A stretch of DNA of 64,000 nucleotides from Achromobacter sp. AONIH1 (GTDB lineage Bacteria > Pseudomonadota > Gammaproteobacteria > Burkholderiales > Burkholderiaceae_B). The first letter of the stretch is position 1. Each line of letters opens with the position of its first letter. The translations under genes and the position numbers were made by a program. Of the stretch, positions 1 through 30,560 are shown piece by piece. The notes under the pieces were generated by a model, which ran no database searches, was not told where the DNA came from, and worked only from the letters and a program-made list of their open reading frames with translations. The stretch lies in contig NZ_CP026124.1 of the NCBI RefSeq assembly GCF_002902905.1, positions 4,464,001 through 4,528,000 on the forward strand, given 5' to 3'.

Positions 1-1
1 C

Positions 2-3000
2 CTTCAGGCTGAGGTCTCCCCCGCCCGTCGTGACGCGGGCGCCGTCCGGCGTGATCCGTCCCGTGCTTCCCACCGCCAGCACCAGGCCGTCGCTATAAGG
101 GAAACGGAAGGAGGATGTGCTGCCGGGCTTTCTCTGGATCCCCGCATCGCCGCCCACCGCGACATCCACATTGCCGCCGCCCAGCGCGCCAATGCCGGTG
201 AAGCCTTCTATCGTGACGCCCGGCTGGCGAATGGAAGAATAGAACGCGGTCGGCACATACGTGCCGAAATTGATCCACCACGCGGTGCGCTGCCCCAGGT
301 CCTCGCCGCCCTGCCGCCACAGCCAGGTACCCGTGTAGCCTCCGCTCATCCAGCCCGATCCGCGCTTGTCGGACAGCTCCGGCCCGCTGGCGATGCCCCG
401 GGTGGCGGCACGCATATTGCCCTGCACGCCGATATAGACGTTGCCGCCCTGCTCCGGGTACCAGGCGGCGTACTGACCGCCCGTCACCAGCGGTTCGTAG
501 CGGGCCGACCCCGCGCCCAGGACGGACTCGCGGCCATTCGCCAGGGACTGGTCCGGATCGCTGGCCCGCTTCAGGTTGTAGGCGTCCTGCCCCAGGGCAT
601 TGAGGACGGGGTTGCCATCGTGATCCCGCACGGGGCCGGACTGCGTGCCTGCCGTGTAGATGCCGTAGAACGAGGTCTGGCGGAAGTCGCCGCCGGACAG
701 GATGTCCAGGTCGCCCTTCCCGGTTCGGATGACGCTGAAAATGGGCGATTCGCCCAGCCGTCCTCCCGACAGGTCCTGCTGATAATGCAGATCCGCCAAC
801 CGGACCTGACCGCCACCGGCCAGCTGCATGGACGGCAGCAAGGCGCGCGTGTCGGCCGACGCCAGATCCGCGCCGCCGGCCAGCCGAAGGCTCCACGACT
901 CGGTACCGGCGGGCAACATGGGCGCGACGGCCCAGATGCGGCCCTGCTTGCCATTGGCGTCCAGATCGCGCAGGGGCACGCTGCTGCCGGCAAAGCGCAA
1001 CGTCGAACCCGATGGCAGATAGGAACCCGGCGCCAGGGTCAGGTTGCTCGACAGCGCAGGCTGCATGTCGAAGATGCCCAGCGACGTGCCCTTGGGCAGG
1101 GTGAAAGGCGCCACCGTAATGCTCTGGTCAGCCATGAAGCCGGCGGCCAGCGTGGTTCCCGGCTCCAGCAGCAGGTTGGCGGCGACGATGGTACCCGCGG
1201 CGTAGACCGTGCCGTCGGGCGTGGTGACCGCGCCGCCCAGCACCGTGCCAGCGCGCAGGTTGAAATAACTCTCGAGTTGGACCTCGGTCGGCATGCGCAC
1301 GCGGGCCTTGATGACGCTGGAGCGCAGCGGCGCGTCGAAGTTCAGCGATTCTCCCTCGACATTGGGAAACGTCGTGGTGACGCCAGCCGCGGCGCCTCGC
1401 AGGGTGATGCTCTTGGGCACGATGATGCTCTGCTGCCACAGATCCACGCCGTTCGGATTGTTCGTCGCCAGCCGGCCCACCAGCCTCCATGCGCGGCTGT
1501 CTTCATCCGTGCTCAGGGGCGGTGCGAAACCGTCGTTGATGCTGCCGTAGACATTGAGATTGCCCTTGGCCCGTATCAACAGAACGCCGGGCTCGCCCAT
1601 GCCGCGCCGGGCCGGGTTGGACGGATCCGCGCCCGGACCATAGCGATAGCCGGACAGGTCCAGGTCCCCGCTGATCGTCAGGTCGCCGTCGGCCGTCGCG
1701 CTGCTGATTTCCACGCCGGGACGCAGACGGTACGGTCCCAGGGCGGCAAGCCGGCCGGACAGCGCGGCGTTGTTCAACGCCCCGTTCATGTATGTCGTAT
1801 TGTCCCGGTGGACACGATCGAGATAGGCCTGGGTGATCTGCTGGGGTCGCCTGCCGTTGACATCGGGCACGCCGGCGGCCGGCGCATCGATGTAGGTGGC
1901 GTAGTCGAACGCATTGACCGCCACGCGCATCGCGCCCGCGATGCGGGGCGCGCCCAGCACGTCCAAGGCGACGTCGTTGGCGCCGATGCGGGAGGCGTTC
2001 AAATCGACGGTGCCGCGGGCGCGGCCGTCGTTCCTGCCAGGGCCCGTCCCCGCGGGTGCCGCGGTGCCGGCGCGAAGGTCCATTTCCGCGCCCGCCGCCA
2101 GGATCAGCCGTCCCTTGCGCGACGTCAGATCGATCACGGCGCGGTTCGGGCTGTCGATGATGGCGCCGGCGCTGTCGACGCGCAGCAGCGTTCCGTGCGC
2201 ATCAAGCAGCCCGTTGAGAACCAGATCGTTCATGGCCGCGAGCCGGATGCTGCCCACCTGTGCGCCGCTGGCGTCGATCTTGCCATTGATGCGCAGGCTG
2301 CCGCCGTCGGCGGCGATGACGACGTGCCGGGCGCGGACTTCGTCGCCGACCGTCAGGTCCCCGATCCTGGTCTGGAAACTGCGGGATCCGGTGACGCCGG
2401 TCTGGGTGAGGCGGCGATTCAGACCGCCGAAATCCTCGATGGATTGCCCTTTCAGCTGGATGCCGCCGTTTTCGAAGGGCACATAGGTGCCGCCGGCATC
2501 GTATTCGCCGCTGGCGCTGCCCAGCAGTTGGCCTCGCAGCGCGATCAGGCCGGCCGTCGCGCCCGTGGCCGACGCGCGCAGGCTGCCTGCGTGGTTATAG
2601 GCGGCGGAAACGTCCACGACCGATCCGGCCGACTGAATTATGTTGCCCGACTTGCTTTCCAGCTCGACATCGCCGCCCCAGCTGTAACGGGTCTGGTCGA
2701 ACAGCGTCGTGCCGCGCCCGGCCATGTCGATGCGCGCGCCGTCGCCCAGCGTGATGTCCCGTTCGGCCCGCACGCTCAATTTGCCGCTGGGCAAGGCGAT
2801 GGCGCTGTCCAGCGTGACGCTGTCCGCGACCAGATACAACGATCCGCCGATGGCCGCGGCGCCGACCGCCTGTCCCGCACCCGACAGGCGCAGCGCGCCG
2901 CCGGCCGTGATGCGGGACACGGACGCGGCTTCGCCTGTCAGCAGCGGCGTGCGCAGCACCAGGTCGCCGCCCGAATAGGAAAACGCGCCGTTCGAGTAAC

Positions 3001-6000
3001 TCCCGCGAGACTGATAGACGCCCACACTGCCTTCACCGTTCGCGGAAATGCGTTCCGTCGCGTCCAGGGTCACCTGGGAGAAACCCAGCGCGAGGCGTTT
3101 CATGTTCAGATGCGGCGTCAACGGCGTTCCGTTGGCATCGCCCAGCATGATGCGGCGGGCGCGCAGATCCAGACGACCGAGTCCGGTTCCGGCCCCGCCG
3201 GCAACGATGTCCCCCGCGGGCGCATCCGCCACGCCGTTCCAAACCAGCGTGTCGGTGCTCACGCTCGCGACATCGCCGGCCGCGCCCAGTCCATACATGG
3301 CAGGCGTATTGAACACCAGTTGCTGCAGGCTGGATTTTCCGGTGGTGGGATCCAGCGTGCTCAGATTCACCGAACCGAAGAAATTGACCGAGTTCTTCAT
3401 TGAGAAAATGACGCGCTCCAACGCCGGCGCGCCCATTTCCCGATCGCCGATCAACAGGCGGCTCAACAGGGTCTGCGACAGTCGCAACCCCGGCGGCAGC
3501 ACGCCGCGCGCGGCAGCGTCGGCCAGCGCCGCCTCGTTGCCCACGTTCAGGCTGTTCGCCGCCAGCACCAGATTGCGCGTGCCGTAGCGCAGCGCATCGT
3601 GGACAATCAGGTTGCTGGTGCCGATGGCGATCGTGCCGTCCGAATAGAGACGTGCGGGCGCCGCGCAAGCCGCGACGGCGCAGTCCGCGCCCAGTTCGAT
3701 CCCCGCCTCCTGACTGCTGACGCCATTGGCGAAATCCAGCCAGCCGTTGGACACCGCCAGCACATTCACGCTGCTGTCGGATTGGCCGTAGCGATAGCCG
3801 TTGCGCGAGTCGTAGGGCGCGGCGCCCATGCCCAGCGTATTGATGATGGCTCCGCGCTCCACCACGATCGATTTGGTGTCCGATGTCATCAGCAGGACTT
3901 CGGGAGCTCGCAGCAGCGCTCCGCTGCGCAGGTAGATATCGTCGCCGCGCACGTCGAATCTCAACCGGTCCGGGCTGATCGAGGATTGAGCGGTCGAGCC
4001 TCCGATGGAAATGCGATCGGCGCCCAAGGCGTTGATATCGGCCGCCCGGACCGAGGCGCCCAGGAATCCGGGCGTGGCGCCGTCCTTCACGATTTCCAGC
4101 GGCTGGTCCGCACGCACGATTACCTGGCCGCCATAGCCCTGCGCGCCTCGGTTGGCGCGCATCACGCCTTCGAATCGGAACGCCGTCGCGCCTGCGCTGT
4201 CCGCGTCCGAGAGGAATCGCAGTTCGAGCGCAGAGACATCCTGAGGCGACCACGCACGCGGCAGCCCCTTGCGCGTCGCGTCCGCCAAGACGTAGGCCTG
4301 GTAGTCCATCTCGTTGTATTGCGCGTGCCGGCGCAACACGTCGCCCGGCGTGATCAGCGCCTGACGGGGCCAGCCGTCGCCGGTGCCCGTGCCGGCCAGC
4401 CCGCGCGTCGCCGTCACCGTCCAGGATCCGCCGCGCAGGCCGACAGGCGCGAACGGCTGCGCATTCGCCCCAACCTCGACGCGGAAAGCGCCGGGCAGGA
4501 GCGCGTAGTACGCGGGGAGCAGCGTATAGGTGCCCGCCGCCAGACCGGGCACGCCCGCGCCGATGGTGATGGTTTCTCCGGGCAATGGCCGGGATCCCGC
4601 GTAGCCGGCGGAGGCATCCCTCGGCGCCAGCGGCGCATACCGGTCGGGCAACCCTGGCAAGATGGCATAGACCGGGCGGGCGTCCAGCGTCGGCAGTTCG
4701 AATTGGCCTGATGGCGGGTCGAACCGGGGCAGCGGGTGGTACATGGGATCCGTGGAGCCGCCTCGTCCGCTGACGAATGCCGCGCCGGCCAGCGTGCCGC
4801 CGCCGGAAACATCGATCACCGCGCCCGGATCCACGCTGAACGAGCGGCCCGTAAGCACCACGCCGTGTTCCATGTTGCCGATGCCGTTCTTGCCCCCTAC
4901 CGAGCCAAGCTCGACGGTCGCGCCGTTGTACAGGTAGCTCAATCCGTCGACCGTGCCGCCATAGGGTATCGTCGCGCCCCTGGCGCTGACGGACGTCAGG
5001 CTGCCCGGCAGCAGCCGCACGCTGCGATTGATGTTGGCGCCGGTCGAGCCCAGTTGTATCGCGCCCAGCGGCGCATACAGGACGCCGCCCTGCTCCACCG
5101 TCGGCGCCATGAGCGCCAGCCTGCCGAACGCCGACAGCGGCGTGACGGCGGACAGGGACCCGTCCACGCGTTGCACCCGCAATGCGCGCTCCGGGTCAAA
5201 GGTATTCGCATCCCTGACGCCGGCCACCGCGAGGCCGGCGGAACCCGTCGCGGGATAGATGCGCTGCGCCGCCAACAACAGGTCGCCGCTGGCGAGCATG
5301 GCGCCGGCCGAGGGAAAGCCGCCGAATGGCAGCGAAGCCGGGGTGGCCGCCGTCGAGGACAGAAAACGCAGATCGCCCCGGCTGCGTAGTTCGACCAGGC
5401 CGTAGCCACGGCGGTCCACGGTTTGTGTCATGCCGCCATTGAGCGTGACCGCGCCCTGGATGCCCGTGCGGACGAAATCGCGGATGTCGATATGGTCTGC
5501 TTCAACGCCGAGCCGCGCGGCGTCTCCTTGCCCTGACGCCCGCCATTCTTCCAACGAGGCGAATACCGGCAGAGGCGGAGTCGACGGGGGAAGCAGACTG
5601 GTGCGTCCGCTCAGCAGCACGTAGGGCGCGGCGAGGCGAACCGTGGCGCCGGCCCGCGTATTGCCGAGCGCGCCTTCATACAGGTTGATGGCCCGGCGCA
5701 AGCCCAGATCCACATTGCCATCGAAAGTGACGAGGTCCCGCGCCATCAGCGACACTTCGTCGAAGCCGCCGGCCAGGATCTGATCGACGCCGATGCGGCC
5801 CTGGCCATAGCTCAGCGTGACCGAATCCGGCCGCGCGCCGACGGGCAGCAGGCTGGCCCCGCCGGCTTGGGCGACCACCAGCTCCCTGGGGCGGATCATT
5901 TCATCTGGCGTACCTGCGTCATAGAGTGGCGTTTCCAAGCGAAGCGAGAGCTTGCCGCCCGGCGCATCCGGCGTGCCGCCCGCGGCCCGCATGTCGCCGT

Positions 6001-9000
6001 CGAGATAGAGCCCTGCCGTCGCGGACAGCGCGATTTCTCCGCCCTTGCCTCCGATGCGCGTGTGAACGGCCGCCGCGCCCGGCATCGGGACATCGACATC
6101 CATGCGCGTTCCCGACGCGTCCAGCACCGCCCCGGGGCGGATCACGACGAATTCGCCGTCCAGCGCGATGCGTCCGCCGTCCCGCTGCAAACCGTATTGG
6201 CGTCCCGCCGTGTCTATCCCGGTCGCCGAGATGCCCGCGACATCCAGCCGCGCCTGCCCGTCCAGCCAGATCGAATTTGACAGTCCGCCCTTCTGCAGCT
6301 GGATGCCGACAACCGGGTCCGCCCCTCGCGCCGCCTCGATACGGCCGCCCGGCGCGCGCAGGGTTCCGCTGATGCGCAACATGCCGCGCGACTGCAGCTG
6401 GATCACCTGGCCGGGGTCCACCTCGACCAGCGCGCCCGCGCCGATGCGCAGGCCGCCTTCGGACTTGGGCTGGTACGGCGCGAAGGCGCTCAGGGACACG
6501 CTGGCGCCCAGGCGCTGGGACATGCGTCCCGCGAGCGGGTCCTCCTGGAACACGGGAGGCGTCCACAGTTCCAGCGCGTCGGCCACGCTGGAAGCACCGG
6601 CGTCAGGGTTGACTGAACGCGGACGATAAACCGGCATGACGGGGCGGACCATGGCGCCATCGGCGATCTCCAGGCCGGCATTGCCGTTGATCTCATAGCG
6701 CGAGAATCCCTGCGCGAACAGACTTTCGGACAATACGATGACGCCAGGCTGCGCCGCGCCCGCACCGCCGATCCGCACCTTGTCGCTGGACAGCCTGAAG
6801 GTGCCGCCACCCGTCACGCCATAGGCATGGGCCGTGCCATCGAACGTGACGCCGACGCGACCGGGCGCGGGCGCGCTGCCATCCGGGGAAAGAGCCAACT
6901 CCACTCTGACGTCGCCGCCCCGGCCGCCGATCAATTTGCCGGATGCGGCGATTGCGGCGCCGGAATCCGCATTCAGCACGCTGCCTTTCCCGACCCGCAC
7001 GTCCTCGGTGCCACGCAATACGATCTGTCCGCCGTTGCGATATGCCAGGTCGCCGGCTGTCGCGGGATCGCGCCTTGCGTTGACCCACGCGCCGCTGACG
7101 TCGAGCAGTACGCCCGGCGCAACGATCAGGCGGGCCGACGCGTTGGCGACCGCTGGAATCATGGCATCCCGATCGATGCCTTCGTACACATTGCCCGCCG
7201 CGATGCGACCGCTACGCGCGCTCAGGTCCGACGCAATCGCCACGTCAGGCGCATACAGCTCTATCTGGCCGCCATTCGCCACGCGCAGGCGGCTTTTCAC
7301 CGACACGGACTCCGACGCGACGGCGGTGATCTGCCCCAGACCGATACCGTTCAGCCTGCCGGCGTCCAGGGAAATGCGGCCGTTTCCAAGCGCTGGCAAG
7401 GGATCGTCCAGGTTGACTGCCAGCGCGCCGGATGGCTGTCCGTCCTGGATAGAGATATTTCCCGTCGTGGCATACAGATCGTAGCCCCAGCGCACCTTGC
7501 CGTTCTGTTCGAAGCTCTTGGCCTGGTATCCGCCGATGACCAGCTGGCCTGCCAGTGACCGGGCCAACTGCGATTGCCGGTAGCCCGTTTGCTGGCGCAC
7601 GCCGGCGTCGATGTTCTGTCTGGCCTGCGTTTGATAGACGCCTTGAAACGCCTCGCCGATGATGTCGCCATCGAGAACGGCGGTTTTCGTCGATACGACC
7701 AGCTGACCGGCGTCGCGGCCGGCGGTATAGCCTTCTTCGTAGCGCTGGCGCGGCCCGATCAGCGGGTTGTGGAAATAGCGCGTGCCCTTGTCGCCCCAAC
7801 GCGCATGGACATCCTCGAAGCCCTTGTACAAGCCCTTGTACAGCAGATCTCCCGGCGCACGCGATATTTCGTACAGCCGGCCGTCCTCGCCGCGCAGCCA
7901 GCTTTGCCTGAGATAGCCGCTCTGCACGTCCAGCGTGCCGCCGGAGATGTTGATCTGGGAGCCGGCGCGACTCACCAGCTCGCCGCCCGCCACGGTGACG
8001 ATGCCGCCCACCGCCGCCCATTCGCCGACGCCATGCTCGGTGGTGCCCAGATAGCCGCCCACTTCCAGCAGGCCACCCGGCGTATACCAGCGCTCCCGCT
8101 CGTAGCCGTTGACGCCCTTGGCGATCTGGATCAGCGTGCGCCTGTCCACCCAGACATCGGTGTTGTTCAGTGTCTTGCCGTCCCGGCTGACCGGCGCATC
8201 GCGCTGTTCGTTGCCCTGGATATTGACTTTGACGTTGTTCGACTCCATGGCGAGCTTGACGCCGACAGCGCCGGCCACGTCCAGGACCGCGCCGTTTTCC
8301 AGCAGGGTGCGCCGCGCGGCGGACACCGCGATCTGGCCGCCGGTCGCCAGGGCCATCGCGCCGCCTTCCACCTGCACCGTTCCGCCGCTGGTCATCTCGA
8401 TGCGCGACTGGTCGCGCCGGTCCGGCACGGAGCTAAGATGATCGAACGCCTGTCCCGCCGCGCGATAGCCGTCTGCCGCGCTTGCCGGAAGCAGCAAGGC
8501 ATCGCGCTGGGCATCCAGCGCGCGCCCGCCGTCGGCCTCAAGTAGAATTGCCGTGGCCGAATCGCGGCCCAGCACGATCTTGCCGCCGGTATCGCTGGCC
8601 GAGTTGAGCAGATGCACCGTGCCGCGCGTCGTTACCGTGGTGCTGGATACCGCGACGCCCAGCTGGCGCACGTCATGGCCCGTCAGCGTCACGTCTCCGG
8701 TCGGAGCCTGGATCAATCCCGTATTCGCCACCAGCCCTGCTTCACTGTCGGCCCTGCGGCGCGCGGACACCTCGTTGCCACGGGTCGTCGATATGCTGTT
8801 GGCGTCGGACGCCAGGCCCTTGCGGATGATGAAGCTGTCTCCGGCGGCCAGCAGCGTCTGGCCGCCCGGCGTCGTGATCTGACCGGCATTGTGCGTCTCC
8901 CGCCCCAGGAGCAGCACGTAACCGCCGCCCTGGGTGACCGACTCGGGCTTGCCCGTCTGTATGCGCGCGCCTGCTTCCACGCGCACGTCGCCCGTCGCCT

Positions 9001-9877: not shown

Positions 9878-9984
9878 GCCGTATCTCTAGTGTGAAATGC
9901 CGCCGCCCGTCGGGCGGCCTTGCCTAGTCCCATTCATAACGGCCGCGCGCATGCTGACGCCGCGCTGACCGCTACAGCTACTCG

Positions 9985-10038
9985 CATGATGTGTAATTCA
10001 GATGACAGCGCCGGGAAAAAAGGTGTGGAGTGCCGTAA
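9985..10038 (-). promoter_or_regulatory. Shared promoter element, copy A, with PHO-box-like half-site
   Basis: Read on the minus strand, this stretch contains TTTTTTCCCGGC followed by CTGTCAT, and then an 11-bp-spaced weaker unit ATTACAC. It aligns without gaps to 11507-11560 upstream of the PstS-like gene (44 of 54 bases identical, 28 of 29 in the core at 10003-10031). It ends 107 bp upstream of the exoprotein ATG and lies downstream of the preceding terminator, as a promoter should. PhoB binding is inferred. Confidence 0.6.
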
Positions 10039-10085
10039 CAAGTTGCGGAGTGGCGTTCGCCCGGAACGCCCTTGCAAGGTCGATG

Positions 10086-10128
10086 AAAAAAGACGGCGCA
10101 CCCCGCGATACTCGCGGAATGCGCCGTC
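10086..10128 (-). terminator. Rho-independent terminator of the PstS-like gene
   Basis: On the minus strand a GACGGCGCA/TGCGCCGTC outer stem encloses an inner CCGCGA/TCGCGG stem and is followed directly by six T residues. It lies 50 bp after the PstS-like stop codon and before the exoprotein promoter element, so the two genes are separate transcription units. Confidence 0.85.
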
Positions 10129-10178
10129 CACACTGCTGCTATCGCGACTTGCCTACAGCTGCTGGAGCCCTCGCCCCA

Positions 10179-11393
10179 TTAGCCGCGGCCAGCGTAGCTG
10201 CCGCAAACCGTCGTGTTGCCGATGTTCAGGTTCTTGGCATCGCCCGTCACGAAGGTGTTGAGGATCGCGTCGCGCGTATCCTGGCTCAGCGCGACCAGCA
10301 GGTGGTCGCCCGGCAGCAGGTTGCCGGCGTCGTAGTGCTTCGTCAGGAAGTCCTTGACGTCGTTGGCGACAGCAGCGCTGGTGTAGCACTGGCTCAGCAC
10401 CAGGTTGGTGGGGCCGGCGATCGGATAACCCTTGGTCGGGTTGACCGACGCACGGATCCAGTTGAACGGGTTGCCGGCGTTGTTCACGTCGTTCCAGCCA
10501 GTCGCGGCCGGATTCGTGACGGTGGGAGCCGAGCCCGGCAGGCCGCCGGAACCCGAGTTCTGCAGCGCCAGGTTGACGTCGTCGGCGGTCGGGCTGTAGA
10601 CGACATTGTCATTCGAGTTGCGCAGATTGGCCTGCTTCAGCGTGCCGGTGTAGGCCGGATCGGGGCTGAGGTAGGTGATGGCGGAAGTCTGGCCGCCGAT
10701 CACGGTCGCCACGCCGCCGCTGCCGTTGGCCGGCAGGAAGGTGGCGGGCGGGGTGTTCGACGGGAATTCCTGGGCGAAGGTGCTCTTGCCCGAGAAGGCC
10801 ACGTTCGAATCGGCGCCGCACACGGCTTGCAGATGGCGGGTCAGCAGTTCGGTGGTGCCGCTGCTGTCGCTGCGGTACACGACCTTGAAGTCGTTCAGAT
10901 TGGCGGGGACGGTCACGCCGACCTGGCTCCACTTGGTGAACTTGCCCGAGAAGATGCCGCAGACCTGGGCCTTGTTCAGCGTGATGACGCCCGTCGGACC
11001 CTTGTAGGAAACCGTCACCGGGGTGGCGACCGAGGGAATCTGGATCAGCGGACCGTGGCCCACCGGGTTGCCGATCTTGCCCAGGCCGGTCGTCAGGTAG
11101 TCGTTGATCTGCGTTTGCGTCAGGATGGAATCGCTGCCGATCCAGTGCACCACACCCGAGCTGCCGAAGCCGGTGGCGTTGTTCGTCAGGAAAGCGGTCT
11201 TGCCCGCGCCGCTGCCCACGCCCTTGTAAGGCTTGAAGCTCGCTTCGGGGAAGTTGGTGATTTCGTCGTTGTACAGCTTCTCGGGCAGCGTGGCGCCGCC
11301 GGAAACCACGACCTGCTGCGCCAGCGCGGCGCCCGACAGGGCCATCAGGCCGACCGCCGACAGAACGGCGACCAGGGAATTGCGGTTGAACAT
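10179..11393 (-). CDS. PstS-like phosphate-binding protein, secreted (DING/LapA-type candidate)
   Basis: The 404-residue protein starts at ATG 11393, preceded by AAGGAG. It has a Sec signal peptide cleaved after ALA (residue 25). The mature part starts with VVVSGGATLPEKLY and carries a YRSDSSGTTELL loop, the phosphate-binding RSDxSGTT signature of PstS family proteins. It is longer than a typical PstS (about 345 residues), and no pstCAB permease genes follow, so it may not feed an ABC importer. It lies directly downstream of a type II secretion operon, next to a giant exoprotein and behind a PHO-like element. This suggests a phosphate-starvation-induced exported phosphate binder or phosphatase, like the DING/LapA proteins secreted by the Hxc system. 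A free-standing periplasmic PstS is the alternative. Confidence 0.8.
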   Translation of the reverse strand: MFNRNSLVAVLSAVGLMALSGAALAQQVVVSGGATLPEKLYNDEITNFPEASFKPYKGVGSGAGKTAFLTNNATGFGSSGVVHWIGSDSILTQTQINDYLTTGLGKIGNPVGHGPLIQIPSVATPVTVSYKGPTGVITLNKAQVCGIFSGKFTKWSQVGVTVPANLNDFKVVYRSDSSGTTELLTRHLQAVCGADSNVAFSGKSTFAQEFPSNTPPATFLPANGSGGVATVIGGQTSAITYLSPDPAYTGTLKQANLRNSNDNVVYSPTADDVNLALQNSGSGGLPGSAPTVTNPAATGWNDVNNAGNPFNWIRASVNPTKGYPIAGPTNLVLSQCYTSAAVANDVKDFLTKHYDAGNLLPGDHLLVALSQDTRDAILNTFVTGDAKNLNIGNTTVCGSYAGRG

Positions 11394-11506
11394 GTCTTGC
11401 TCCTTGCACTCGTTTCGGAGAGAACTGCCAGTGGAGAAAAGAACGGATGAATCCAAGAACGCACCCTGCGGCTACGGAGAGAAAAGCCTGCCTGACGCGT
11501 TGAAGT

Positions 11507-11560
11507 CATGATGCGCAAGCGAGGTGACAGGGCCGGGAAAAAAGGTGTGGAGTCGGGTAA
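11507..11560 (-). promoter_or_regulatory. Shared promoter element, copy B, with PHO-box-like half-site
   Basis: This is the second copy of the element at 9985-10038, with a core of 28/29 identity at 11525-11553. On the minus strand it contains CCTTTTTTCCCGGC then CTGTCAC, with a weak second unit 11 bp on (CTTGCGC). It ends 113 bp upstream of the PstS-like ATG, nearly the same distance as copy A from its gene. Confidence 0.6.
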
Positions 11561-11582
11561 GAATGTGGGGATAAGCCCGCCC

Positions 11583-12788
11583 TCACCCAACCATCTGATT
11601 GATCTCCATGATCGGCAGCATCACCGCCAGCACGATCACCAGCACCACCGCGCCCATGGTCAGGATCATGATCGGCTCCAGCAAGGCCGTCATCGCCATC
11701 GCCCGCCGCTCGATATCCGACGACAGCGTCTGCGCCGCCCGGTCCAGCATGCGCGACAGCGTGCCGGTCTTCTCGCCGCTGGACACCAGATGGCACAGCA
11801 GCGGCGGGAACACTTTCTGCTGCCGCAGCGCCGCGCCCAGGCCCGAACCGCCTTCGATGCGCGCAGTGGCGTCGAGCACGGCGCGGCGCAGGCATTCGTT
11901 GCCCAGCGTCTGGCGCGCCGCTTCCAGGCCGCGCAGCAGCGGCACGCCGGCGTCTGACAGGATGGCCAGCGTGGACGCGAAGCGCGCGGTGTTCACGCCC
12001 AGCGCGAAGCGCCCGATCATCGGCAGGCGCAGCACGCGCGCATGCCAGGCCAGCCGGGCGGCCTCGGCGCGCTGTGTCCAGCGCCAGAGGCCGAACAGCA
12101 GGACCAGGACCAGCGCGTTCAGCGCGCCCCATTGGCGCACGTATTCGCTGGCGGCCAGCATCGCCTGGGTGATGAAGGGCAGCTCCTGCCGCGCCTGCGA
12201 GAAGGCGCTGACCACCTGCGGCACCACGTAGGCCAGCAGGAAGATGACGATGCAGATCGAGACGCAGCCGACGATGGCCGGATAGATGAAGGCGGTCAGC
12301 ACCTTGGAGCGCAGCGCGTTGCGTTCCTCGATGTAGTCGGCCAGCCGTTCCATGATGCGCGCCAGGTCGCCGGAGTCCTCGCCGGCCTTGATCAGCGCGC
12401 GATAGATGGGCGGAAAGTCGCGCGGGCGCGCGGACAGCGTATCGGAAAAGCGCTGGCCGCCGCGTACATCGGCGCGCACGGCGGTGAAGGTATCGGTGAT
12501 GTGTTTTTTCTCGGCCTGTTCGACGGTGGCGGTCAGCGCGGCTTCCAGCGGCAGGCCGGCGGCCAGCAGGCTGGCGAGCTGGCGGGTGGCCCAGGCCAGG
12601 TCGCTGTCGGACAGCCTGGGGCCGAACAGCTCGATCTGGCCGCGCCTGGCGGCGGCCTCGCGCAGTTCCAGCGCGGTCAGGCCCTGCGCGCGCAGCTGGG
12701 CGCGCGCCGAGCGCGCCGAGTCGGCCACCAGCGTGCCGCGCTGGATGGCGCCCTGTGCGTCGGCGGCCTCGAAACGGAAATTCGCCAT
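11583..12788 (-). CDS. gspF: Type II secretion inner-membrane platform protein GspF
   Basis: The 401-residue protein begins MANFRFEAADAQG and shows the two T2SSF repeats of the family. The first contains GLPLEAAL and GEDSGDLARIM, and the second contains SGEKTGTLSRML. Three membrane segments are visible: one around residues 160-190 (IVGCVSICIVIFLLAYVV), one near residue 220, and one at the C-terminus. GspF is the polytopic platform protein that couples the GspE ATPase to pseudopilus assembly. It is the last gene of the gspGKLMDEF operon, 10 bp after gspE, and the PstS-like gene follows with its own promoter. Confidence 0.95.
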   Translation of the reverse strand: MANFRFEAADAQGAIQRGTLVADSARSARAQLRAQGLTALELREAAARRGQIELFGPRLSDSDLAWATRQLASLLAAGLPLEAALTATVEQAEKKHITDTFTAVRADVRGGQRFSDTLSARPRDFPPIYRALIKAGEDSGDLARIMERLADYIEERNALRSKVLTAFIYPAIVGCVSICIVIFLLAYVVPQVVSAFSQARQELPFITQAMLAASEYVRQWGALNALVLVLLFGLWRWTQRAEAARLAWHARVLRLPMIGRFALGVNTARFASTLAILSDAGVPLLRGLEAARQTLGNECLRRAVLDATARIEGGSGLGAALRQQKVFPPLLCHLVSSGEKTGTLSRMLDRAAQTLSSDIERRAMAMTALLEPIMILTMGAVVLVIVLAVMLPIMEINQMVG

Positions 12789-12798
12789 GGTCTCTCCC

Positions 12799-14250
12799 CT
12801 ACCCGTCCCGCGTCACGCGGATGATTTCTTCGGGCGCGGTCTGGCCGTCGCGGACCCAGCGCTCGCCATCCTCGCGCATCACCTTCATGCCGGAGCGTTG
12901 CGCGGCCACGCGCAGCTGCTGTTCACCCGCGCCTTCGTGGATCAGGCGGCGCTGCTCATCGTCGATGACGTACAGCTCGTGGATGCCGGTGCGGCCGCGA
13001 TAGCCGGTGTGGTTGCAGGCCGGACAGCCCACCGGCAGGAAATGGCCACCCTCGGGCGCGGGCCGCTTGCAATCCGGGCACAGTCGGCGCACCAGGCGCT
13101 GGGCCAGCACGCCCAGCAGCGACGAGGCCAGCAGGAAGGGCTCGACGCCCATGTCGGTCAGGCGGGTCAGCGCCGAGACCGAGTCGTTGGTATGCAGCGT
13201 GGCCAGCACCAGGTGGCCGGTGAGCGAAGCCTGCACCGCGATCTGGGCGGTCTCCAGGTCGCGGATCTCGCCGATCATGATGACGTCGGGGTCTTGCCGC
13301 AGGATGGCGCGCAGCGCCACGGCGAAGCTCATGTCGATCTTGGCGTTGACCTGGATCTGGCTGATGCCTGGCAGGTCGTATTCCACCGGATCCTCGACGG
13401 TCAGCACGTTGCTGGTGGCGGCGTCGATCTGGCCCAGCGCGGCGTACAGCGTGGTGGTCTTGCCGCTGCCGGTCGGGCCGGTCACGAGCACGATGCCGTG
13501 CGGCTGGTGCACCAGGCGGTCCAGTTCCGCCAGCACGCCGGGCGCCATGCCCAGGCGTTCGAGCTTGAGGCGCCCGGCTTCCTTGTCCAGCAGTCGCAGC
13601 ACGGCGCGCTCACCATGCCCGGTCGGCACCGTGGACACGCGAATGTCGATGGGCCGGCCGCCCACGCGCAGCGCGATGCGGCCGTCCTGCGGCAGGCGTT
13701 TCTCGGCGATGTCCAGGTGGGCCATGATCTTGATGCGCGAGATCAGCGCCGAGTGCAGCGCCTTGCGCGGGCTGACCACGTCGCGCAGGCCGCCGTCGAC
13801 GCGGTAGCGCACCACCGAATGCGTCTCGAATGGCTCGATGTGGATGTCGCTGGCGCCGTCGCGCGCGGCCTGGGTGAACAAGGCGTTGATCATGCGGATG
13901 ACGGGCGCGTCGTCCTGGGCGTCGAGCAGGTCCGTGACTTCCGGCATCTCGTGCATCAACCGGTCCAGGTCAACCTCGTTCTCGGCCGCGCCGACCACGG
14001 CGGCGGCATCGCCGGCGTCGGCGTAGGCCGCCGTCAGCAGGGACTCCAGTTCGGCGTCGGCGGCCTGGCGCAGCGGCACCGGGCCATGGCGGCGGCGCAC
14101 TTCGGTGATGGCCCAGGAAGGCGTCAGCGGGCTGACGACCAGTTCGTCGCCATCACCCGCGCGGCGCAGCAAGGCCCGCTGCGCGCGCGCCCAGGCATAG
14201 GGCAGGCGCGTCCCGGCGCCTGGCGCGGCTTCGCCGGCGGGCGCGCTCAT
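12799..14250 (-). CDS. gspE: Type II secretion ATPase GspE
   Basis: The 483-residue cytoplasmic ATPase powers pseudopilus extension. The Walker A loop [10 protein letters not shown], the Asp box TVEDPVEY, Walker [10 protein letters not shown] and the His box TLHTND are all intact. A tetracysteine zinc motif (CPDC, then CPAC) follows, as in GspE/PilB family members. The N-terminal region is fairly short, which may reflect a reduced GspL-interacting domain. Its ATG overlaps the gspD stop by 4 bp, so the two are translationally coupled. Confidence 0.95.
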
Positions 14251-17081
14251 AGGCCCAGCACCATCTCGGGCTGGTAGCCCAGCTCGCGCAGCAGCTGCAA
14301 CGCGGTGTCCACCGAGCGCTGGTCGCGCGGCACGCTGGCGCGCACCACGTAACTCTGCCCGCCCGGTCCGGACAGGGTGTAGGCCTTCAGGCCGCTGACC
14401 TGCACGCGCCGGGAGACCGCCGTCGCCTCGGCTTCCGTGGCCACGTCGGCGAACTGCAGCACGGTGTTCCTGGCATCCGGCTGACCGTAAAGCGCGGCGG
14501 GATCGCTGGCGACGGTCAGGCCGGCCGGCAGGCGCGTGCGCACCTCGGTGCGCTCATCGGCCGGGCTCTTGACGGCGGCCAGCTGCCTCGGCTCGGTCGT
14601 GCCCTGCGTGGCGGGCGGCTCCCGGCGCAGGGTCTGCTCCAGCGAACCGGCGCGGAAGTCATAGGGCTGCCCCGCCACCGGCACGCCGGCCGGCGGCAGC
14701 ACCGGCGCCCGCATGTCGGGCAGCAGCGGATGGTCCGCCGGCTGCACCTGGCTCTGCACGCGCCGCATGTAGTTGTAGCGGCTCTGGGTCAGCCCCATGC
14801 CGCCAGCCGAGTCGCGCACCACGTAGGGGCGCAGGAACACCATCAGGTTGGTCTTGCTGCGCCCGCGCGTGTCATAGCGGAACAGACTGCCCAGTACCGG
14901 GATGGAGCCCAGCACCGGCACCTGGTCCCGGCTGTTCGTGACGCTGTCTTCCAGCAGGCCGCCCAGCACCATGATCTGGCCGTCGTCCAACAGCACGCTG
15001 GTGTCCATGGCGCGCTTGTTGGTGACCAGCCCGGCCGCGACATCGGCCGTCCTGTCGATGCTGCTGACTTCCTGGTAGATGTCCAGCTTGACCGTGCCGC
15101 CCTCGGATATCTGCGGCCGGATGTTGAGCTTCAGGCCGATGTCCTCGCGCTGGATGGTCTGGAAGGGATTGCTGTTGGTGCTGCCGGGCGTGATGTACTG
15201 GCCGCTGACGAAGGGCACGGTCTTGCCCACCATGATGGAGGCCGGCTCGTTGTCCAGGGTCAGCAGGTTCGGCGTGGACAGCACGTTGCTGCCTCCCTTG
15301 GTCTGCATCGCGCGCGCCAGCACGCCCAGGTTGGCGACCTCGCCAACGCCGGGAATGTTGATGGTGCCCGAGATCACGCCGATGCTCAGGCCGCCCTTGG
15401 GCAAGGCCTGGATGGAATTCTTCCCGCCAGGCGTGAAGGTGTCCTTGCCGAAGTTCGCGCCGCCGAACACGCGGCCGCCGCCGGCCAGCCACTGAATGCC
15501 CAGCTCCGCGCCGTCGTTTTCCGTGATCTCCACGATCAGGCTTTCCACCAGCACCTGGGCGCGGCGCTGATCCAGCAGGTCGATCACCTTGCGCAGGCTG
15601 CGGTACATGGGCTCGGGCGCCGAAATGATCAGCGTGTTGGTGGTGGCGTCGGCGTTCACCGTGACGCCATTGGCCGAGAATGCGGAGCCGTCCTGCCCCT
15701 TGCGGCCGGTGGTGCCGGGTCCGAGCGCGTCCGTGCCCCGGCCGTTGTAGCCGCTACGGGCGCCGGCACCCGTGCCGTTGTTCTGCCCGGCGCCGGAAGC
15801 GCTGGCGCCAGACGTATTCGCCTGCTGGCCGTTGGCATTGCCCGAGCTGTTGCCCAGGCCGCCGCCGAAGGCCCCGCCCGGCCCCAGCGCGGCGCGCGCG
15901 GCGGCATCGCCGCCAGCGCCGCCGCCGTCGCTCTCTCCGGTCAGGACACCGCGCAGCACGCGGGCCAGATGCGTGGCCTGGGCGTTGCGCAGGTAGACCA
16001 CATGCAGGTTGTCCGGGTCCGTCTGCGAGCTGTCCAGCTGGCGGATCAGGTCGCGCGCCAGCTTGGCGCGACCGGGGCTGCCAGAGCGCACGATGACGCT
16101 GTTGGCGCGCGGGTCGGCCACCACGACGACGCGCTGGCTCGGATCCTCGTTGCGCTGAGCGTCCAGCAATTCCGAGGCCATGCCTGCGATGTCCACGGCG
16201 ATGCCCTGCCGCACCTTGACGACTTCGGTGACCAGCGACGAGGGATTGTCGATGCTGGCGATGATGCGGCCGATGCGGTCCAGGTTGTCGGCGTAGTCGG
16301 TGATGACCAGCGTGTTGTTGGCCGGATAGGCCGTGATGCTGTTGCTGGGCGCGATCATGGGGCGCAGCACCGGCACCAGCGCGGTCGCGTTCTCATAGCT
16401 CAGGCGGAAGGTCCGCGTGACCACGCCGCCGCCCGCCGGCGCGTCGGCGCTTTGCACCGGCCCGCCCTGCAGCTTGGCGTCGGCTTCCGGCATCACCCGG
16501 GTGCCGCCGGCCACGTCGACCGCCGCGTAGCCCTGCATGCGCAGCGCGCCCAGCAGCATGCCGTAGGCGGCGTCGGGCGCGACCGGCCCCTGCGACACCA
16601 GCGTCAGCGTGCCCTTGACGCGCGGGTCGACCAGGAACTGCTTGCCGGTGAATTTGGCCAGCACGCGCAGCACGGCGGGAATGTCGGCGTCGACGAAGTT
16701 CAGCAGCACGCCCTCCTGCGCGGCGGCGGCGGGTTTGCCCGGCGGGACGTTGGCCGCCGGAGTATCGCTGGTCTTCTGCCCGGCGTCGGCCTGCGCCGAC
16801 AGCGGCGCGGCGCGCTTGTCGCCGCCCACGGCGCGCGATGCCTGCGCGGTGCGCAAGGGCTGCGCCCGCGCGGCCTCGGGCGCCGGCGTCGCCCTGGCCT
16901 GCGCGGTGGGCGCCAGCGTCATGGCCAGCGGTGGCAAGCCATCCAGCCCCGTCTGCGGCGCGTCGGCGCGTCGGCCGCCGTCCGGCGTCGAGCAACCGGC
17001 AAGCGCAGCCAGTACGGCCATGCTCACGACCTTGCGCCGGGCCGTCGTGCGGGCGGCTTGCGGCAAGCGATACTGCGTCAC
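14247..17081 (-). CDS. gspD: Type II secretion secretin GspD, lipoprotein type with C-terminal SPOR-like region
   Basis: I place the start at GTG 17081, five bases after the gspM stop, with GAGAGG upstream. The N-terminus then carries a lipobox LAGC (Cys30), so this is a candidate liposecretin like HxcQ that could reach the outer membrane without a GspS pilotin. N0-N3 repeats are followed by the secretin core, with [15 protein letters not shown] near residue 740. A Gly/Asn/Gln/Ser-rich insert of about 80 residues lies near residues 395-475, inside the N-domain region. The last 70 residues (about 870-944) resemble a SPOR domain, which normally binds denuded peptidoglycan and is unusual in secretins. 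The protein is long for the family at 944 residues, mainly because of these two additions. Confidence 0.93.
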
Positions 17082-17085
17082 TGTG

Positions 17086-17718
17086 TTACCTCTCGTTCCG
17101 GGTGGCGGGGGACAACTCGATGGATGCGCGGTACTGATCCAGAAGCGACATCCCGGTTGGCGACACGGCGCCCTTGCCCGGCACTTCGAGCACCGTAACG
17201 GCCGGCCTGGACCCGGCGGCGGCGGGCGCATCGATGCGGCGCAAGTCGATCCGGTCCGGCCGCAGCGACAGACGCCCAGGCTGCGTCAGCAGCCAGCGCA
17301 ACAAGGGTTCGGCCCGCGCGTCATCCAGGCTCAGGCGCCAGCGGCCATCCTGGCCGGGCGCCGTCACGTCGGCCTGCAAACCGGCCTGCTCCAGGCCGAG
17401 GCGCAGCGACGCTTCCGTCGCCGGGCCGCGCGCGGTTTGCTCACGAGGCGCGCTGGCCAGCAATGTTTCCAGCTCGATGCTCAAGCCGCGCAGGCGCGTC
17501 AGTTCGGCGCGCGCGCGCTCGGCCCTGGCCAGCGCAGGCTCGATCAGCGCCAGCCAGCACAGCGCGGCCAGCGCCAGCAGGGCGCAGCCGGCCAGCATGC
17601 GGCGCTCGCGCGGCGCCAGTCCGAGCCAATAATTCCCGGCGCGCGCGCGCCAGTCCGCGATGCGCTTGCGCCCTGCCGCGAACGGCGCCGCCGCCAGGGG
17701 CCGGAACGCGAAGCTCAT
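17086..17718 (-). CDS. gspM: Type II secretion protein GspM
   Basis: The 210-residue bitopic inner-membrane protein has one transmembrane segment (ALLALAALCWLALI, near residues 45-60) and a periplasmic ferredoxin-like tail ending in ATRNER. The LAPRERRML sequence just before the membrane helix is typical of GspM. GspM dimerises with GspL in the assembly platform. Its ATG overlaps the gspL stop by 4 bp and gspD starts 5 bp after its stop, so it is inside the operon. Confidence 0.85.
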   Translation of the reverse strand: MSFAFRPLAAAPFAAGRKRIADWRARAGNYWLGLAPRERRMLAGCALLALAALCWLALIEPALARAERARAELTRLRGLSIELETLLASAPREQTARGPATEASLRLGLEQAGLQADVTAPGQDGRWRLSLDDARAEPLLRWLLTQPGRLSLRPDRIDLRRIDAPAAAGSRPAVTVLEVPGKGAVSPTGMSLLDQYRASIELSPATRNER

Positions 17719-19004
17719 GAGCGGCTCGCGGGTGCCGCGCCCTGTGGCGGCGCGCGGCGCAGGCGCCAGCCGCCGGCTTGCGGCTCGACGGATACGCCGT
17801 CCTTGGCCGCCGCCTTGATCCAGTCCGGCGTGCCCCCTTCCGGCGCCGGGTCACGGCGCGCGCCGGGCGCCATCTCCACATCCAACGCGCCGTCCGCATA
17901 GCGCAAGCCGGCCACTTCGCCGGTGGCGAAGGCCAGATGCTGCGTGGCTGCGCCCAACAGGAACGCGAACTCCGATTGCCCGGGACCGCCTTGCAACTGC
18001 TGGCGGACCTGGCGCAAGGGATCGGTCACGCGGGCCAGGGCGGGGAACGCCTGTTGCACACGGCCATGCACGTGCGCGCGCAGTTCGGCGACGCCGTGTT
18101 CAAGGCGCCAGGCCTGCAACTGCAGGCCGCCGATCCACACCGTGGCGGCGATGGCGGCCCATTTGATGGCGCCGCGCCACGATCCGGCCACGGCGCTCGC
18201 GCGGCGGGCCAGCGCTACATTCCAGCCTGGTGCGACATCGGCGCCAGCCTCGATCTCGCGGCCCTGTTCAGCGGGCATGTCATGGGGCCACCAGGGCGGA
18301 ATCCCGCCGATCCAGACGATCCGCGCCGGTCTGGCGGTCTCCAGCGCGCGCAAAAGGGCCTGCACACCGGGGATGTCGGCTCCCGACGCGCCCACGCCCG
18401 GCTTGTCAGCGCCGGCGGCATGCCCGCCCACGGAGTCCATGGCGCCTGTATCCGCGCGGGAAACATCCCCGGAAGGCACGTCCGCGCGCGCGATCGCATG
18501 GATCTCCACGTGATCGGAGCCGGCGCGCAGCGCTACCCAATCGTCTCCCTGCATCAAGGTCCAGCCGTCGGGTGTGCGCGGCAGCCATAGCGGCAGCGGC
18601 GCAAGAGCCGCTGCCGTCAGGCCGCAACCTTCCATCAGCGCCTGCGCCCGTTCCGCCTGTTCGCGGGCGATCCAGGCCAGGCAGACATTCCCGTCCGCGG
18701 CGCGCGCGCCATGGGCCACCAGCAGCGCGTCGGCGTCGCCCAGGGCCAGCAGTTCCACCGCGCCCGCCGCCGCCACTTTCAAGCGCGCGGGCGTCAGCGG
18801 CGGCAAGAGCGCGGCGGCCAGCGCCATGTCCTCCGGCTGCACGAAGGCGGTCACGCGCGCGCCCCGGTGCAAGCCCGCCAGCTCGGCAAGGCTGCGCGGC
18901 GTGGCCGATCGCAGCCAGGTCTTGCCCTCGCGCAGCGCATAGGGCAGCGGCGTGTCGGCAGAGAGCAGGCGCAAGGCCGGCAACAGGACGCGGATCTCCG
19001 GCAT
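17715..19004 (-). CDS. gspL: Type II secretion protein GspL
   Basis: The 429-residue protein starts MPEIRVLLP at ATG 19004, which overlaps the gspK stop by one base. The large cytoplasmic N-terminal part is the actin-like domain that recruits GspE. A membrane segment (WAAIAATVWIGGLQLQAW) lies near residue 310 and is followed by a coiled region and a periplasmic ferredoxin-like domain. A Gly/Ala/Asp-rich stretch near residues 185-215 looks like a poorly conserved insertion. Sequence conservation is low, as usual in this family, so the call rests partly on operon position between gspK and gspM. Confidence 0.85.
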   Translation of the reverse strand: MPEIRVLLPALRLLSADTPLPYALREGKTWLRSATPRSLAELAGLHRGARVTAFVQPEDMALAAALLPPLTPARLKVAAAGAVELLALGDADALLVAHGARAADGNVCLAWIAREQAERAQALMEGCGLTAAALAPLPLWLPRTPDGWTLMQGDDWVALRAGSDHVEIHAIARADVPSGDVSRADTGAMDSVGGHAAGADKPGVGASGADIPGVQALLRALETARPARIVWIGGIPPWWPHDMPAEQGREIEAGADVAPGWNVALARRASAVAGSWRGAIKWAAIAATVWIGGLQLQAWRLEHGVAELRAHVHGRVQQAFPALARVTDPLRQVRQQLQGGPGQSEFAFLLGAATQHLAFATGEVAGLRYADGALDVEMAPGARRDPAPEGGTPDWIKAAAKDGVSVEPQAGGWRLRRAPPQGAAPASRS

Positions 19005-19972
19005 CAGGCGCCTTCTCTCGACCAGAGCACCTCGGGCCACGGCTTCGCGCCGCGCGCCAGCAGCGCCTGGAACGGCACCAGCGCCGACCCCAGCCGCGCG
19101 GCGCCAGCGAGCCGGAACCAGTTGCTCTGCACGGCCACGCGCGCCGGATTGCCCTGTTGCCCGGGCAGGTTCAACCTGTTGGCGAAATCGCCCTCCGTGG
19201 CGAACCACATGCCGGCATCGCGCTGGGCGACCAGCGCCTTCGCCTGCTCCAGCGACAGGTCGGGCACGCGGGCGGCGATCACTTCGGCCCGGGCGGTGTT
19301 CACGTTGACCAGGGTGACACGCGGCAATACCGTGACATAGGGCCGCAGGCGCGCGACGACACCGGCGTCCACGCCCGGCGCGCCGGCAAGCTCATCCAGG
19401 CTGCGCGGAAATGGCGCCAGGTTGGGCCGCCCGGCTTCACCCGGCCGGGCCGAAGCCGCGCCGTCGCCAGCTTTATGCGGCGGCGGCAATGACGCCAGCA
19501 TGCGCTGCGCCAGGGCGTCCGCGACCTCCGGCCGCAGCCCCAGCGATTGGCACAGGCGGGCCAGCTCCTCGACGCCGTCCTGATACAGCTTGCCCTCGAA
19601 GACCAGATTGCGCAGGTTGAGCTTGCCCTGCTCGTCTTCCAGGCGGCCCAGGAACACCGGCTGGCCGCCGGCCGTGGCCGCGAGCCGCGCATCGGTGATG
19701 GGCGCGGCCCAGGGCGCGTCGCCGCGCGTGGTGGCGTTGCGCTCGCCATCCTCCTTGATCAGACGCAGGGCCAGGTTCAGGCCGCCGCGCAGCAGCGCCT
19801 GGGCCTGGGCGCGGTTCTGCGCGGCCTGCACCCCGCGCAGGAAGGCGTCCTGGCGTTGCAGCAGCGAGGCGGTGATCATGGTCACCGCCGCCACCACCAG
19901 CAAGGCGCTGATGACGGCCATGCCTTGCTGCCGGACGCGGCGCTCAGAGCTGCCAGGAACCGATGTCGGCAT
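19004..19972 (-). CDS. gspK: Type II secretion minor pseudopilin GspK
   Basis: From the ATG at 19972 the protein has 322 residues. It carries a prepilin-peptidase site after RQQG (residue 17) followed by MAVISALLVVAAV. The +5 residue is Ser instead of Glu, and the lack of Glu5 is a recognised GspK trait. The large globular domain contains EDEQGKLNLRNL and VNVNTARAEVI, both typical of GspK. GspK caps the pseudopilus tip, normally in complex with GspI and GspJ, and neither is encoded here. The start overlaps gspG by 29 bp. A later ATG at 19921 is too close to the cleavage site to be likely. Confidence 0.88.
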   Translation of the reverse strand: MPTSVPGSSERRVRQQGMAVISALLVVAAVTMITASLLQRQDAFLRGVQAAQNRAQAQALLRGGLNLALRLIKEDGERNATTRGDAPWAAPITDARLAATAGGQPVFLGRLEDEQGKLNLRNLVFEGKLYQDGVEELARLCQSLGLRPEVADALAQRMLASLPPPHKAGDGAASARPGEAGRPNLAPFPRSLDELAGAPGVDAGVVARLRPYVTVLPRVTLVNVNTARAEVIAARVPDLSLEQAKALVAQRDAGMWFATEGDFANRLNLPGQQGNPARVAVQSNWFRLAGAARLGSALVPFQALLARGAKPWPEVLWSREGA

Positions 19973-20405
19973 TGCCTGCTTCCCCGTCCGGCTTGCCGTC
20001 GGCGCCGTAGGAAAACACATCGATTTCGCCGTGCGCGCCGGGATTCAGGTACTGATAGGGATGGCCCCAGGGATCGTTGGGCAGGCGGTCCAGATAGGCG
20101 CGCCAGGCGCTGTTGGCGCCCGGCCCCGTAGCGGGCCGCTCCACCAGCGCGCGCAATCCTTGCTCGGTGCTGGGATAGCTGCCGGTGTCCAGCCGATAGA
20201 GCTTGAGCGCCTGCATCAGCGCGCTGATGTCCTGGCGCGCGGCGACCGCGCGCGCCTGATCAGGGCGGTCCAGCAGACGCGGCACCACCAGCGCCGCCAG
20301 GATGCCCATGATCACGATCACCACCATGATCTCGATCAGCGTGAAACCACGCTGCCGATGGCCGGGCGGGCAATGCGTATCCGTCTGGTGCCGGCTTGCT
20401 TTCAT
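19944..20405 (-). CDS. gspG: Type II secretion major pseudopilin GspG
   Basis: The 153-residue protein starts at ATG 20405, with GGAG ten bases upstream. The prepilin site is QRG/FTLIEIMVV with Glu at +5. The conserved GspG C-terminal segment includes YPSTEQGLRALV, LPNDPWGHPYQYLNPG and a terminal GSWQL. GspG polymerises into the pseudopilus that pushes substrates through the secretin. It is the first gene of the operon. Longer in-frame starts upstream lack a ribosome binding site and would add a non-prepilin leader. Confidence 0.93.
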   Translation of the reverse strand: MKASRHQTDTHCPPGHRQRGFTLIEIMVVIVIMGILAALVVPRLLDRPDQARAVAARQDISALMQALKLYRLDTGSYPSTEQGLRALVERPATGPGANSAWRAYLDRLPNDPWGHPYQYLNPGAHGEIDVFSYGADGKPDGEAGNADIGSWQL

Positions 20406-29921: not shown

Positions 29922-30047
29922 GGCCTTACCGCCTCCCCCCTATCCGCCAGCCTTTTCACGGCCGGGCGCCATGCGCCTTGCCACGCTGGCGGATTGGCGC
30001 GCGCATGTGGACCTTCCTCATCGTCCTCCCCTCGCAAGGAGACGACC

Positions 30048-30401: not shown

Positions 30402-30452
30402 GCAACGCCATTCCGTAGTTTTCTGAATCGCGGACACGGAAAGGAGACTGTC

Positions 30453-30560
30453 ATGAAAGACCCGTACAAGTACCTGCTGCTCGCCCGGGTGCTGGCCCTG
30501 GCGCTGATCTGGCTGGTGGCGCTGGTACTGGCCCTGGTATCGAGCTGGCAGCCCGTCTGA
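30453..30560 (+). CDS. 35-residue single-span membrane peptide upstream of mgtC
   Basis: This short gene begins MKDPYKYLLLARVLALALIW and ends SSWQPV. It encodes a basic N-terminus, one hydrophobic helix of about 22 residues and a short polar tail. AAGGAG lies eight bases before its ATG, as strong a ribosome binding site as any in the window. It sits between the ACT-like gene and mgtC in the same direction. Its size and position recall MgtR, the 30-residue peptide that targets MgtC for proteolysis in Salmonella, and other small regulators such as MgtS and KdpF. That functional link is inference, and no sequence homology is claimed. Confidence 0.65.
   Translation: MKDPYKYLLLARVLALALIWLVALVLALVSSWQPV

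Follow-up and report, generated by a model that had tools for sequence, protein, structure and literature searches.

The locus described here occupies part of a 64-kb stretch of DNA (the window; contig positions 4464001-4528000) from the single-contig, 6.65-Mb genome of Achromobacter sp. AONIH1 and continues into the left flank of this stretch, where coordinates are those of locus L014. A preliminary description of the window had placed three secretion-related units head to tail on one strand, and all three are present on the minus strand. In the window these are the type II secretion system (T2SS) genes gspG-K-L-M-D-E-F, a gene for a phosphate-binding protein of the LapA/DING type and a gene for a two-partner secretion (TPS) exoprotein that crosses the left edge. 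Left of the window, on the same strand, follow vreA, vreI, vreR, two PhdA-like genes, a second gene for an extracytoplasmic function (ECF) sigma factor and gspH-I-J-C. Judged by gene content, gene order and motifs, the locus is a rearranged PUMA3/Hxc/Lap/Pdt locus and thus a variant of a known Pseudomonas system.

The T2SS genes of the window comprise gspG for the major pseudopilin (19944..20405, ATG at 20405; Pfam T2SSG, 1.4e-39), gspK (about 19004..19972, start ATG at 19972 or 19921; NF037980, 238 bits with a cut-off of 130), gspL (17715..19004, ATG at 19004; TIGR01709, 106 bits, cut-off 65), gspM (17086..17718; Pfam T2SSM, 1.1e-21), gspD for a secretin of 944 amino acids (14247..17081, GTG start; TIGR02517, 616 bits, cut-off 351), gspE for the ATPase (12799..14250; TIGR02533, 695 bits, cut-off 630) and gspF (11583..12788; TIGR02120, 515 bits, cut-off 424). 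Pfam cut-offs were exceeded by gspG, K, M, D, E and F and, with GspL_C, by gspL, while the NCBIfam cut-offs were exceeded by D, E, F, K and L. The earlier assignment of all seven genes was thus borne out by family models. Since gspH (L014 about 10310-10801), gspI (9937-10323), gspJ (9345-9932; weak Pfam match, E 7e-4) and gspC (8831-9280; weak Pfam match, E 2.8e-7) were found past the left edge, the core T2SS set from C to M is complete, arranged as two groups that flank lapA-tpsA-vreAIR. The N-terminus of GspD carries a lipobox-like LAALAGC, judged by eye, as a candidate lipidation site. The HxcQ secretin is a lipoprotein. As a side observation, gspL and gspM (window 17086-19004) were only about 36-53% identical to genus relatives whose gspE was 88-90% identical, which suggests fast evolution or replacement.

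The lapA-like gene (10179..11393) encodes a PstS-like protein of 404 amino acids (PF12849) with a predicted Sec-type signal, judged by eye. The genome has no other match of this kind at E <= 1e-3. The nearest chains in the PDB were 4m1v (6.6e-53), 5j1d, 5jk4, 2q9t and 4f18, all of them DING/alkaline-phosphatase proteins. Such chains matched at 1e-49 to 1e-53, compared with 6e-7 and 1e-6 for chains of ordinary phosphate transporters. Although LapA/DING proteins are its nearest structural relatives, the AONIH1 protein has the predicted mature N-terminus QQVVVSGGATLP and lacks the DINGGG of true DING proteins. By these sequence features it is closer to the LapA type than to true DING, and LapA and LapB of strain PAO1 have themselves been termed DING-like (PMC2225411). 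As noted before, the gene stands without pstCAB: no match to the pstC, pstA or pstB families was found among the open reading frames (ORFs) scanned on either side. The preliminary description had named a PstS-like protein here and lapA-type substrates in P. aeruginosa. This needs correction, because LapA-type substrates are PstS-like/DING proteins themselves and the PstS-like gene is therefore the lapA counterpart. Its proposed role as a type II substrate is retained by analogy: Psp of P. fluorescens is Pi-induced (Pi, inorganic phosphate) and secreted mainly via Hxc (PMC2225411), so the AONIH1 protein would be a natural substrate. A phage search returned 49 records with PstS-like matches (26-28% for the three listed) and was of little use.

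The exoprotein gene, tpsA (pdtA-like), starts at 9877, covers 1..9877 of the window and ends 2,455 bases left of it. The product, earlier given as at least 3,290 residues, has a full length of 4,110 amino acids in an uninterrupted reading frame, with an N-terminal TPS domain (PF05860, 1.4e-21) and a C-terminal DUF3739 (1.6e-37).

The regulatory genes next to tpsA are vreA (L014 14649-15356), vreI for an ECF sigma factor (14116-14631) and vreR for a FecR-type protein (13018-14004); in P. aeruginosa these three form the PUMA3 switch. VreA combines an STN domain (28.8 bits) and a TonB_2 domain (25.4 bits), both above cut-off, without a barrel, and adjoins the ECF factor and the FecR-type protein. 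A full-length VreA, whose scores are well separated from those of TonB-dependent receptors, was found in 22/22 lap-bearing genomes tested, and in 15 of these it lies inside or at most 7 kb from the fetched lap locus, as read from coordinates. Its presence is weak evidence because the VreA family has several copies per genome; the linkage is the stronger part. The idea that VreA marks lap loci only was rejected, since one genome can carry as many as five members of the family. Downstream follow phdA1-like (12278-12994), with a weak Phd antitoxin match below cut-off (E 0.036), phdA2-like (11563-12270), an open frame conserved in relatives, and ecf2 (10944-11558), whose product is 46% identical to VreI. 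From their sequences the two genes after vreR are PhdA-like. The label 'transposase' was considered for them and rejected, since DUF772/IS-transposase (IS, insertion sequence) models match partially, the frames are open and they are 64-81% conserved in five relatives. Owing to these partial matches at L014:11563-12994, automatic annotation may label PhdA-like genes as transposases.

The proposed counterpart, the P. aeruginosa PUMA3-hxc-lapA/lapB-pdtA-phdA-pdtB locus, shares with AONIH1 the modules VreA (STN and TonB-C without a barrel), VreI, VreR, T2SS, LapA, giant TpsA and PhdA-like protein and the pho box of vreA (PMC2729926, PMC4971064, PMC7035377). This likeness to named PAO1 genes rests on published descriptions rather than on the PAO1 sequence. 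The correspondence with hxc-lap-pdtA that the preliminary description had drawn is supported by gene order, the grouping of GspD, the attached vreAIR and pho-box motifs. In contrast to P. aeruginosa, vreAIR comes after tpsA in AONIH1, gspH-I-J-C follow vreAIR within the pho-box run, two PhdA-like genes and an extra ECF factor are present, pdtB is missing from the locus and AONIH1 has one lap gene. In P. fluorescens SBW25, eleven hxc genes are followed by the DING gene psp and by pflu2428 for a haemagglutinin-type protein of 4,083 amino acids (PMC2225411); AONIH1 differs in the N-terminus of the mature protein, which is not DINGGG, and in the division of the T2SS genes into two groups. For Burkholderia vietnamiensis some hxc-like genes upstream of PUMA3, with tpsA interrupting, have been described, while of the four PUMA3 clusters in R. 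palustris and Janthinobacterium three precede a tpsA and the fourth a tpsB (PMC2729926). In the clusters of that study tpsB accompanies exbBD and a PUMA3 cluster, unlike in the AONIH1 lap locus. The available text of PMC2729926 makes no mention of Achromobacter, and in the accessible portions of the open-licence literature nothing was found on Achromobacter with PUMA3 or HxcQ, nor a description of this locus among reports on Achromobacter two-partner secretion.

Upstream of vreA (L014 near 15530, outside the window) we found CTGTCAC-N4-CAGTCAT-N10-TACATT, which corresponds to a pho box and a -10 hexamer. With the pattern CTGTCAY-N4-CTGTCAY-N10-TANNNT, composed after inspection of the AONIH1 site, it is kept in 8/8 loci of the same layout at one mismatch, and the N10 spacer differs between AONIH1 and the seven relatives. 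It was the sole match at up to two mismatches in an 82-kb stretch, and five shuffles (first-order resamples, as for the element core below) gave none. The upstream region of gspG has no such pho box. A PhoB orthologue is present in the genome above cut-off. The P. aeruginosa vreA promoter contains a pho box and depends on PhoB, and both PhoB and VreI are required for pdtA and phdA in that species (PMC4971064). In the stretch that holds phoB, three 7-bp pho-like repeats with 11-bp spacing were observed some 180 bases upstream of an ORF at 11367 (L155:11159-11190).

A second motif is shared by the two genes for the candidate secreted proteins. The 31-bp promoter-like element CTCCACACCTTTTTTCCCGGCSCTGTCAYCT lies upstream of both lapA (11522..11552) and tpsA (10000..10030) and, with up to three mismatches allowed, occurs nowhere else in the 6.65-Mb genome; none occurred in 100 window shuffles. 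The loci of this layout retain it before lapA (8/8, at most one mismatch) and before tpsA (8/8, at most two mismatches), and the second lap gene, where present in these loci, is without it. The core of the element, TTTTTTCC-N5-CTGTCAYC, matched exactly only at the lapA and tpsA sites of the genome, with one further match at two mismatches; a reversed core gave two genome matches at up to two mismatches. Among the upstream regions of lap genes and tpsA in named loci, 54/143 had the core at up to two mismatches compared to 0.1 expected, although the pattern was composed after seeing some of these promoters, 12 of the 54 matches are those source promoters and one (L147) lies inside a gene. Besides this intragenic match, ten were from Achromobacter (5 lap, 5 tpsA) and the other 43 belonged to lap genes, mostly of Pseudomonas and Variovorax.

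Two readings fit the element, a PhoB/sigma70 promoter and an ECF promoter, the latter with a -35 of CTCCACA/CTCCCGA, a T-tract and a -10 of CTGTCA. If only the first applied, lapA and tpsA would be plain PhoB/sigma70 genes whose pho box (TTTTCCN-N4-CTGTCAY) ends 10 nt before a -10 hexamer, and control by VreI and VreR would play no part. The spacing of 7-4-7-10-6 is the same as in the vreA box, positions A2 and T6 within the hexamer are conserved across Achromobacter, Variovorax and Pseudomonas, and the lap relative psp is Pi-induced (PMC2225411). However, just one repeat of the element fits the pho consensus well, and the same letters also fit an ECF promoter. Moreover, in P. aeruginosa pdtA requires PhoB and VreI (PMC4971064) and lapA is up in a vreR mutant (PMC7035377). 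The start of PAO1 lapA at -107 (PMC12131859), placed on P. otitidis, falls between both promoter predictions. Since none of the 22 genomes tested lacks VreA, its absence could not decide the matter; we consider the plain PhoB/sigma70 explanation possible but rather doubtful.

Relatives of the lap gene (E <= 1e-30) were detected in 16/268 genomes of the family and in 9/43 of the genus; the locus is patchy in the family. Eight of the nine genus loci share one layout, namely gsp, one or two lap genes, tpsA, vreA-vreI-vreR and phdA1-phdA2-ecf2-gspH-I-J-C, with five of the seven relatives readable through to gspC and the contigs of G011 and G031 ending in vreR. The ninth, from A. pestifer (G016), combines gspM-D-E-F-lap-tpsA with further lap genes, gspJ-I-H, gspC, a phdA-like gene and a TpsB gene. 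For a wider gene-order comparison, as the preliminary description had proposed, we collected 65 named lap loci using peptide patterns independent of T2SS and TPS genes. They contained gspF in 53/65, tpsA in 63/65 and both on the same strand in 52/65. The two loci without tpsA in that orientation (L090, L130) hold a tpsA elsewhere, and eleven show lap-tpsA without gspF in the stretch covered (10 kb upstream for ten, less for L094). Hosts include Achromobacter, Bordetella ansorpii, Bordetella genomosp. 13, Alcaligenes, Paenalcaligenes, Variovorax, Azoarcus, Mitsuaria and Pseudomonas. The suggestion of a conserved unit in Alcaligenaceae therefore stands as far as synteny is concerned, but not as a general property of the family. 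In a GspD tree of 28 rows, 13 lap-linked GspDs and one from P. otitidis fell on one side of a branch (100/98), apart from other GspDs of the same genomes; several unlinked Pseudomonas rows were long branches.

The secretin gene itself is not kept throughout. It is intact in AONIH1 and retained in G011 as a copy cut by the contig end. The other six loci of this layout (G006, G012, G021, G029, G031, G040) have lost gspD, which also sets them apart from P. aeruginosa: gspE begins 0-168 nt after gspM, and the remnants differ (L051, L052, L056, L058, L060, L087). In G040 the first gspD codons including the lipobox are retained. G012 and G040, one contig each, have the housekeeping gspD only; the GspD search behind this result and a second one used the same query and had five genomes in common. 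The first lap gene of G040 (L052:19519 to L053:752) is a broken copy, matched as two overlapping segments that differ in frame and include a stop; a whole second lap gene lies next to it. These deletions, the sole housekeeping gspD of the two single-contig genomes and the split lapA match could mean that the T2SS half is decaying in Achromobacter and that the locus serves TpsA only, or that LapA uses the housekeeping T2SS. Nevertheless, all these genes are open in AONIH1. For four pairs of gspD-less genomes, the ratio of nonsynonymous to synonymous substitution rates (dN/dS, simple counting) was 0.05-0.10 for gspE, F and G and 0.25-0.42 for gspK, L and M, with one of the pairs comparable only for M, E, F and lapA; such low values argue that the remaining gsp genes are under selection. 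By this comparison the remaining machinery appears to have been preserved, and our guess is that gspD-less loci borrow the housekeeping secretin, which fits the deletions too. We regard decay, or the use of the housekeeping T2SS by LapA, as quite improbable.

No TpsB gene (PF03865) was matched in the locus, and four occur elsewhere in the genome. One of these, at 5.894 Mb, is of the PdtB type, sharing 63% identity with the TpsB encoded in the A. pestifer lap locus and no more than 25% with the remaining three. It comes after vreA2-vreI2-vreR2-tpsA2 on one strand (L156:1283-16081 with L073:7358-8977), and the tpsA2 product of 4,166 amino acids is 46% identical to that of tpsA. In total the genome has five VreA-like genes, each adjoining vreI, vreR and a tpsA, so that four more vreA-vreI-vreR-tpsA cassettes exist beyond the lap locus (including L160, L161 and L162) with only one PdtB-type TpsB.

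On the basis of motifs and of experiments in Pseudomonas, we propose that the locus is the Achromobacter form of the PUMA3/Hxc/Lap/Pdt unit and serves as an export programme for phosphate starvation, with a probability of roughly 0.6. At low phosphate, PhoB would bind the observed pho box of vreA and drive vreA-vreI-vreR-phdA1-phdA2-ecf2 and probably gspH-I-J-C, if these are co-transcribed in the same run. Since gspG-F are without a pho box, completion of the T2SS may be gated by the vreA operon via gspH-I-J-C. PhoB together with sigma70, or with VreI released from VreR, would then fire the 31-bp element before lapA and tpsA. As judged from Psp and Pseudomonas LapA, the LapA-like protein would cross the inner membrane via its signal peptide, exit via the T2SS of the locus and bind, perhaps also release, phosphate outside the cell. 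TpsA would exit via the unlinked PdtB-type TpsB, which would also serve the other vreAIR-tpsA cassettes.

Several observations weigh against this proposal. The pho-box pattern was derived from the very site it describes in AONIH1, and in the named loci outside Achromobacter the element core was found at up to two mismatches in no tpsA upstream region, which means that promoter sharing is not general. Within the fetched stretch, the lap locus of A. pestifer is without vreAIR, six of eight loci lack gspD, and GspE of the window is 81% identical to the housekeeping GspE of its own genome compared to 76% for lap-linked GspEs (median, n=46 loci). Furthermore, hxcR of SBW25 is described as not Pi-regulated (PMC2225411). 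Taken together, the export locus is real and conserved though patchy, and by its motifs it is probably under phosphate control. The proposal would extend the Pseudomonas phosphate-starvation export unit to Achromobacter and makes a concrete promoter prediction, with one element for a secreted phosphate binder and a giant exoprotein. It also raises the question how, or whether, a T2SS functions in sister species once its own secretin is gone.

The association of VreA with TpsA and TpsB extends beyond the lap locus. VreA-like genes (E <= 1e-25) and PdtB-type TpsB (E <= 1e-60) were present in the identical 25/43 genus genomes; these are raw genome counts that ignore kinship, and for VreA only the best 70 candidates were scored in most genomes. 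A tpsA adjoins 53/55 VreA-like places, and the remaining two (G009:C65, G028:C29) stop at a contig end after vreR. PdtB-type TpsB is single-copy in 24/25 genomes and occurs in 9/9 lap-bearing genus genomes compared to 16/34 others. One genome (G012:C1:3888001-3925000; L158, L159) carries a tandem pair of vreAIR-tpsA cassettes followed by one tpsB, and the coordinates point to this arrangement in G029, G031 and G040 as well. Several PUMA3-tpsA clusters with one tpsB were already seen in R. palustris and Janthinobacterium by Llamas and colleagues, who also speculated that VreA meets an outer-membrane partner (PMC2729926). Relative to the available text of that study, the strictness of the association across a genus is new. 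The signal of PUMA3-type systems might be the state of two-partner secretion, in which case VreA would be the signalling part of a receptor, separated from a barrel supplied by TpsB, and each VreAIR would report export of its own TpsA via the shared TpsB. We think this unlikely and treat it as a lead, because the co-occurrence may merely reflect one inherited vreAIR-tpsA-tpsB unit. Why VreA-type switches of the genus always accompany a giant TpsA and one common TpsB bears on the PUMA3 signal, and this strict association deserves specialist attention, as do the shared promoter element and the missing secretin in sister species.

A phage-type integrase gene and a KfrA-like gene lie about 4-6 kb past gspC (L014:2376-4731); together with the patchy distribution, these neighbours may point to mobility of the locus. 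Rfam and tRNA scans gave no matches. Elsewhere in the window (29994-31351), a fragment with only the C-terminal domain of MgtC directly precedes a full MgtC gene.

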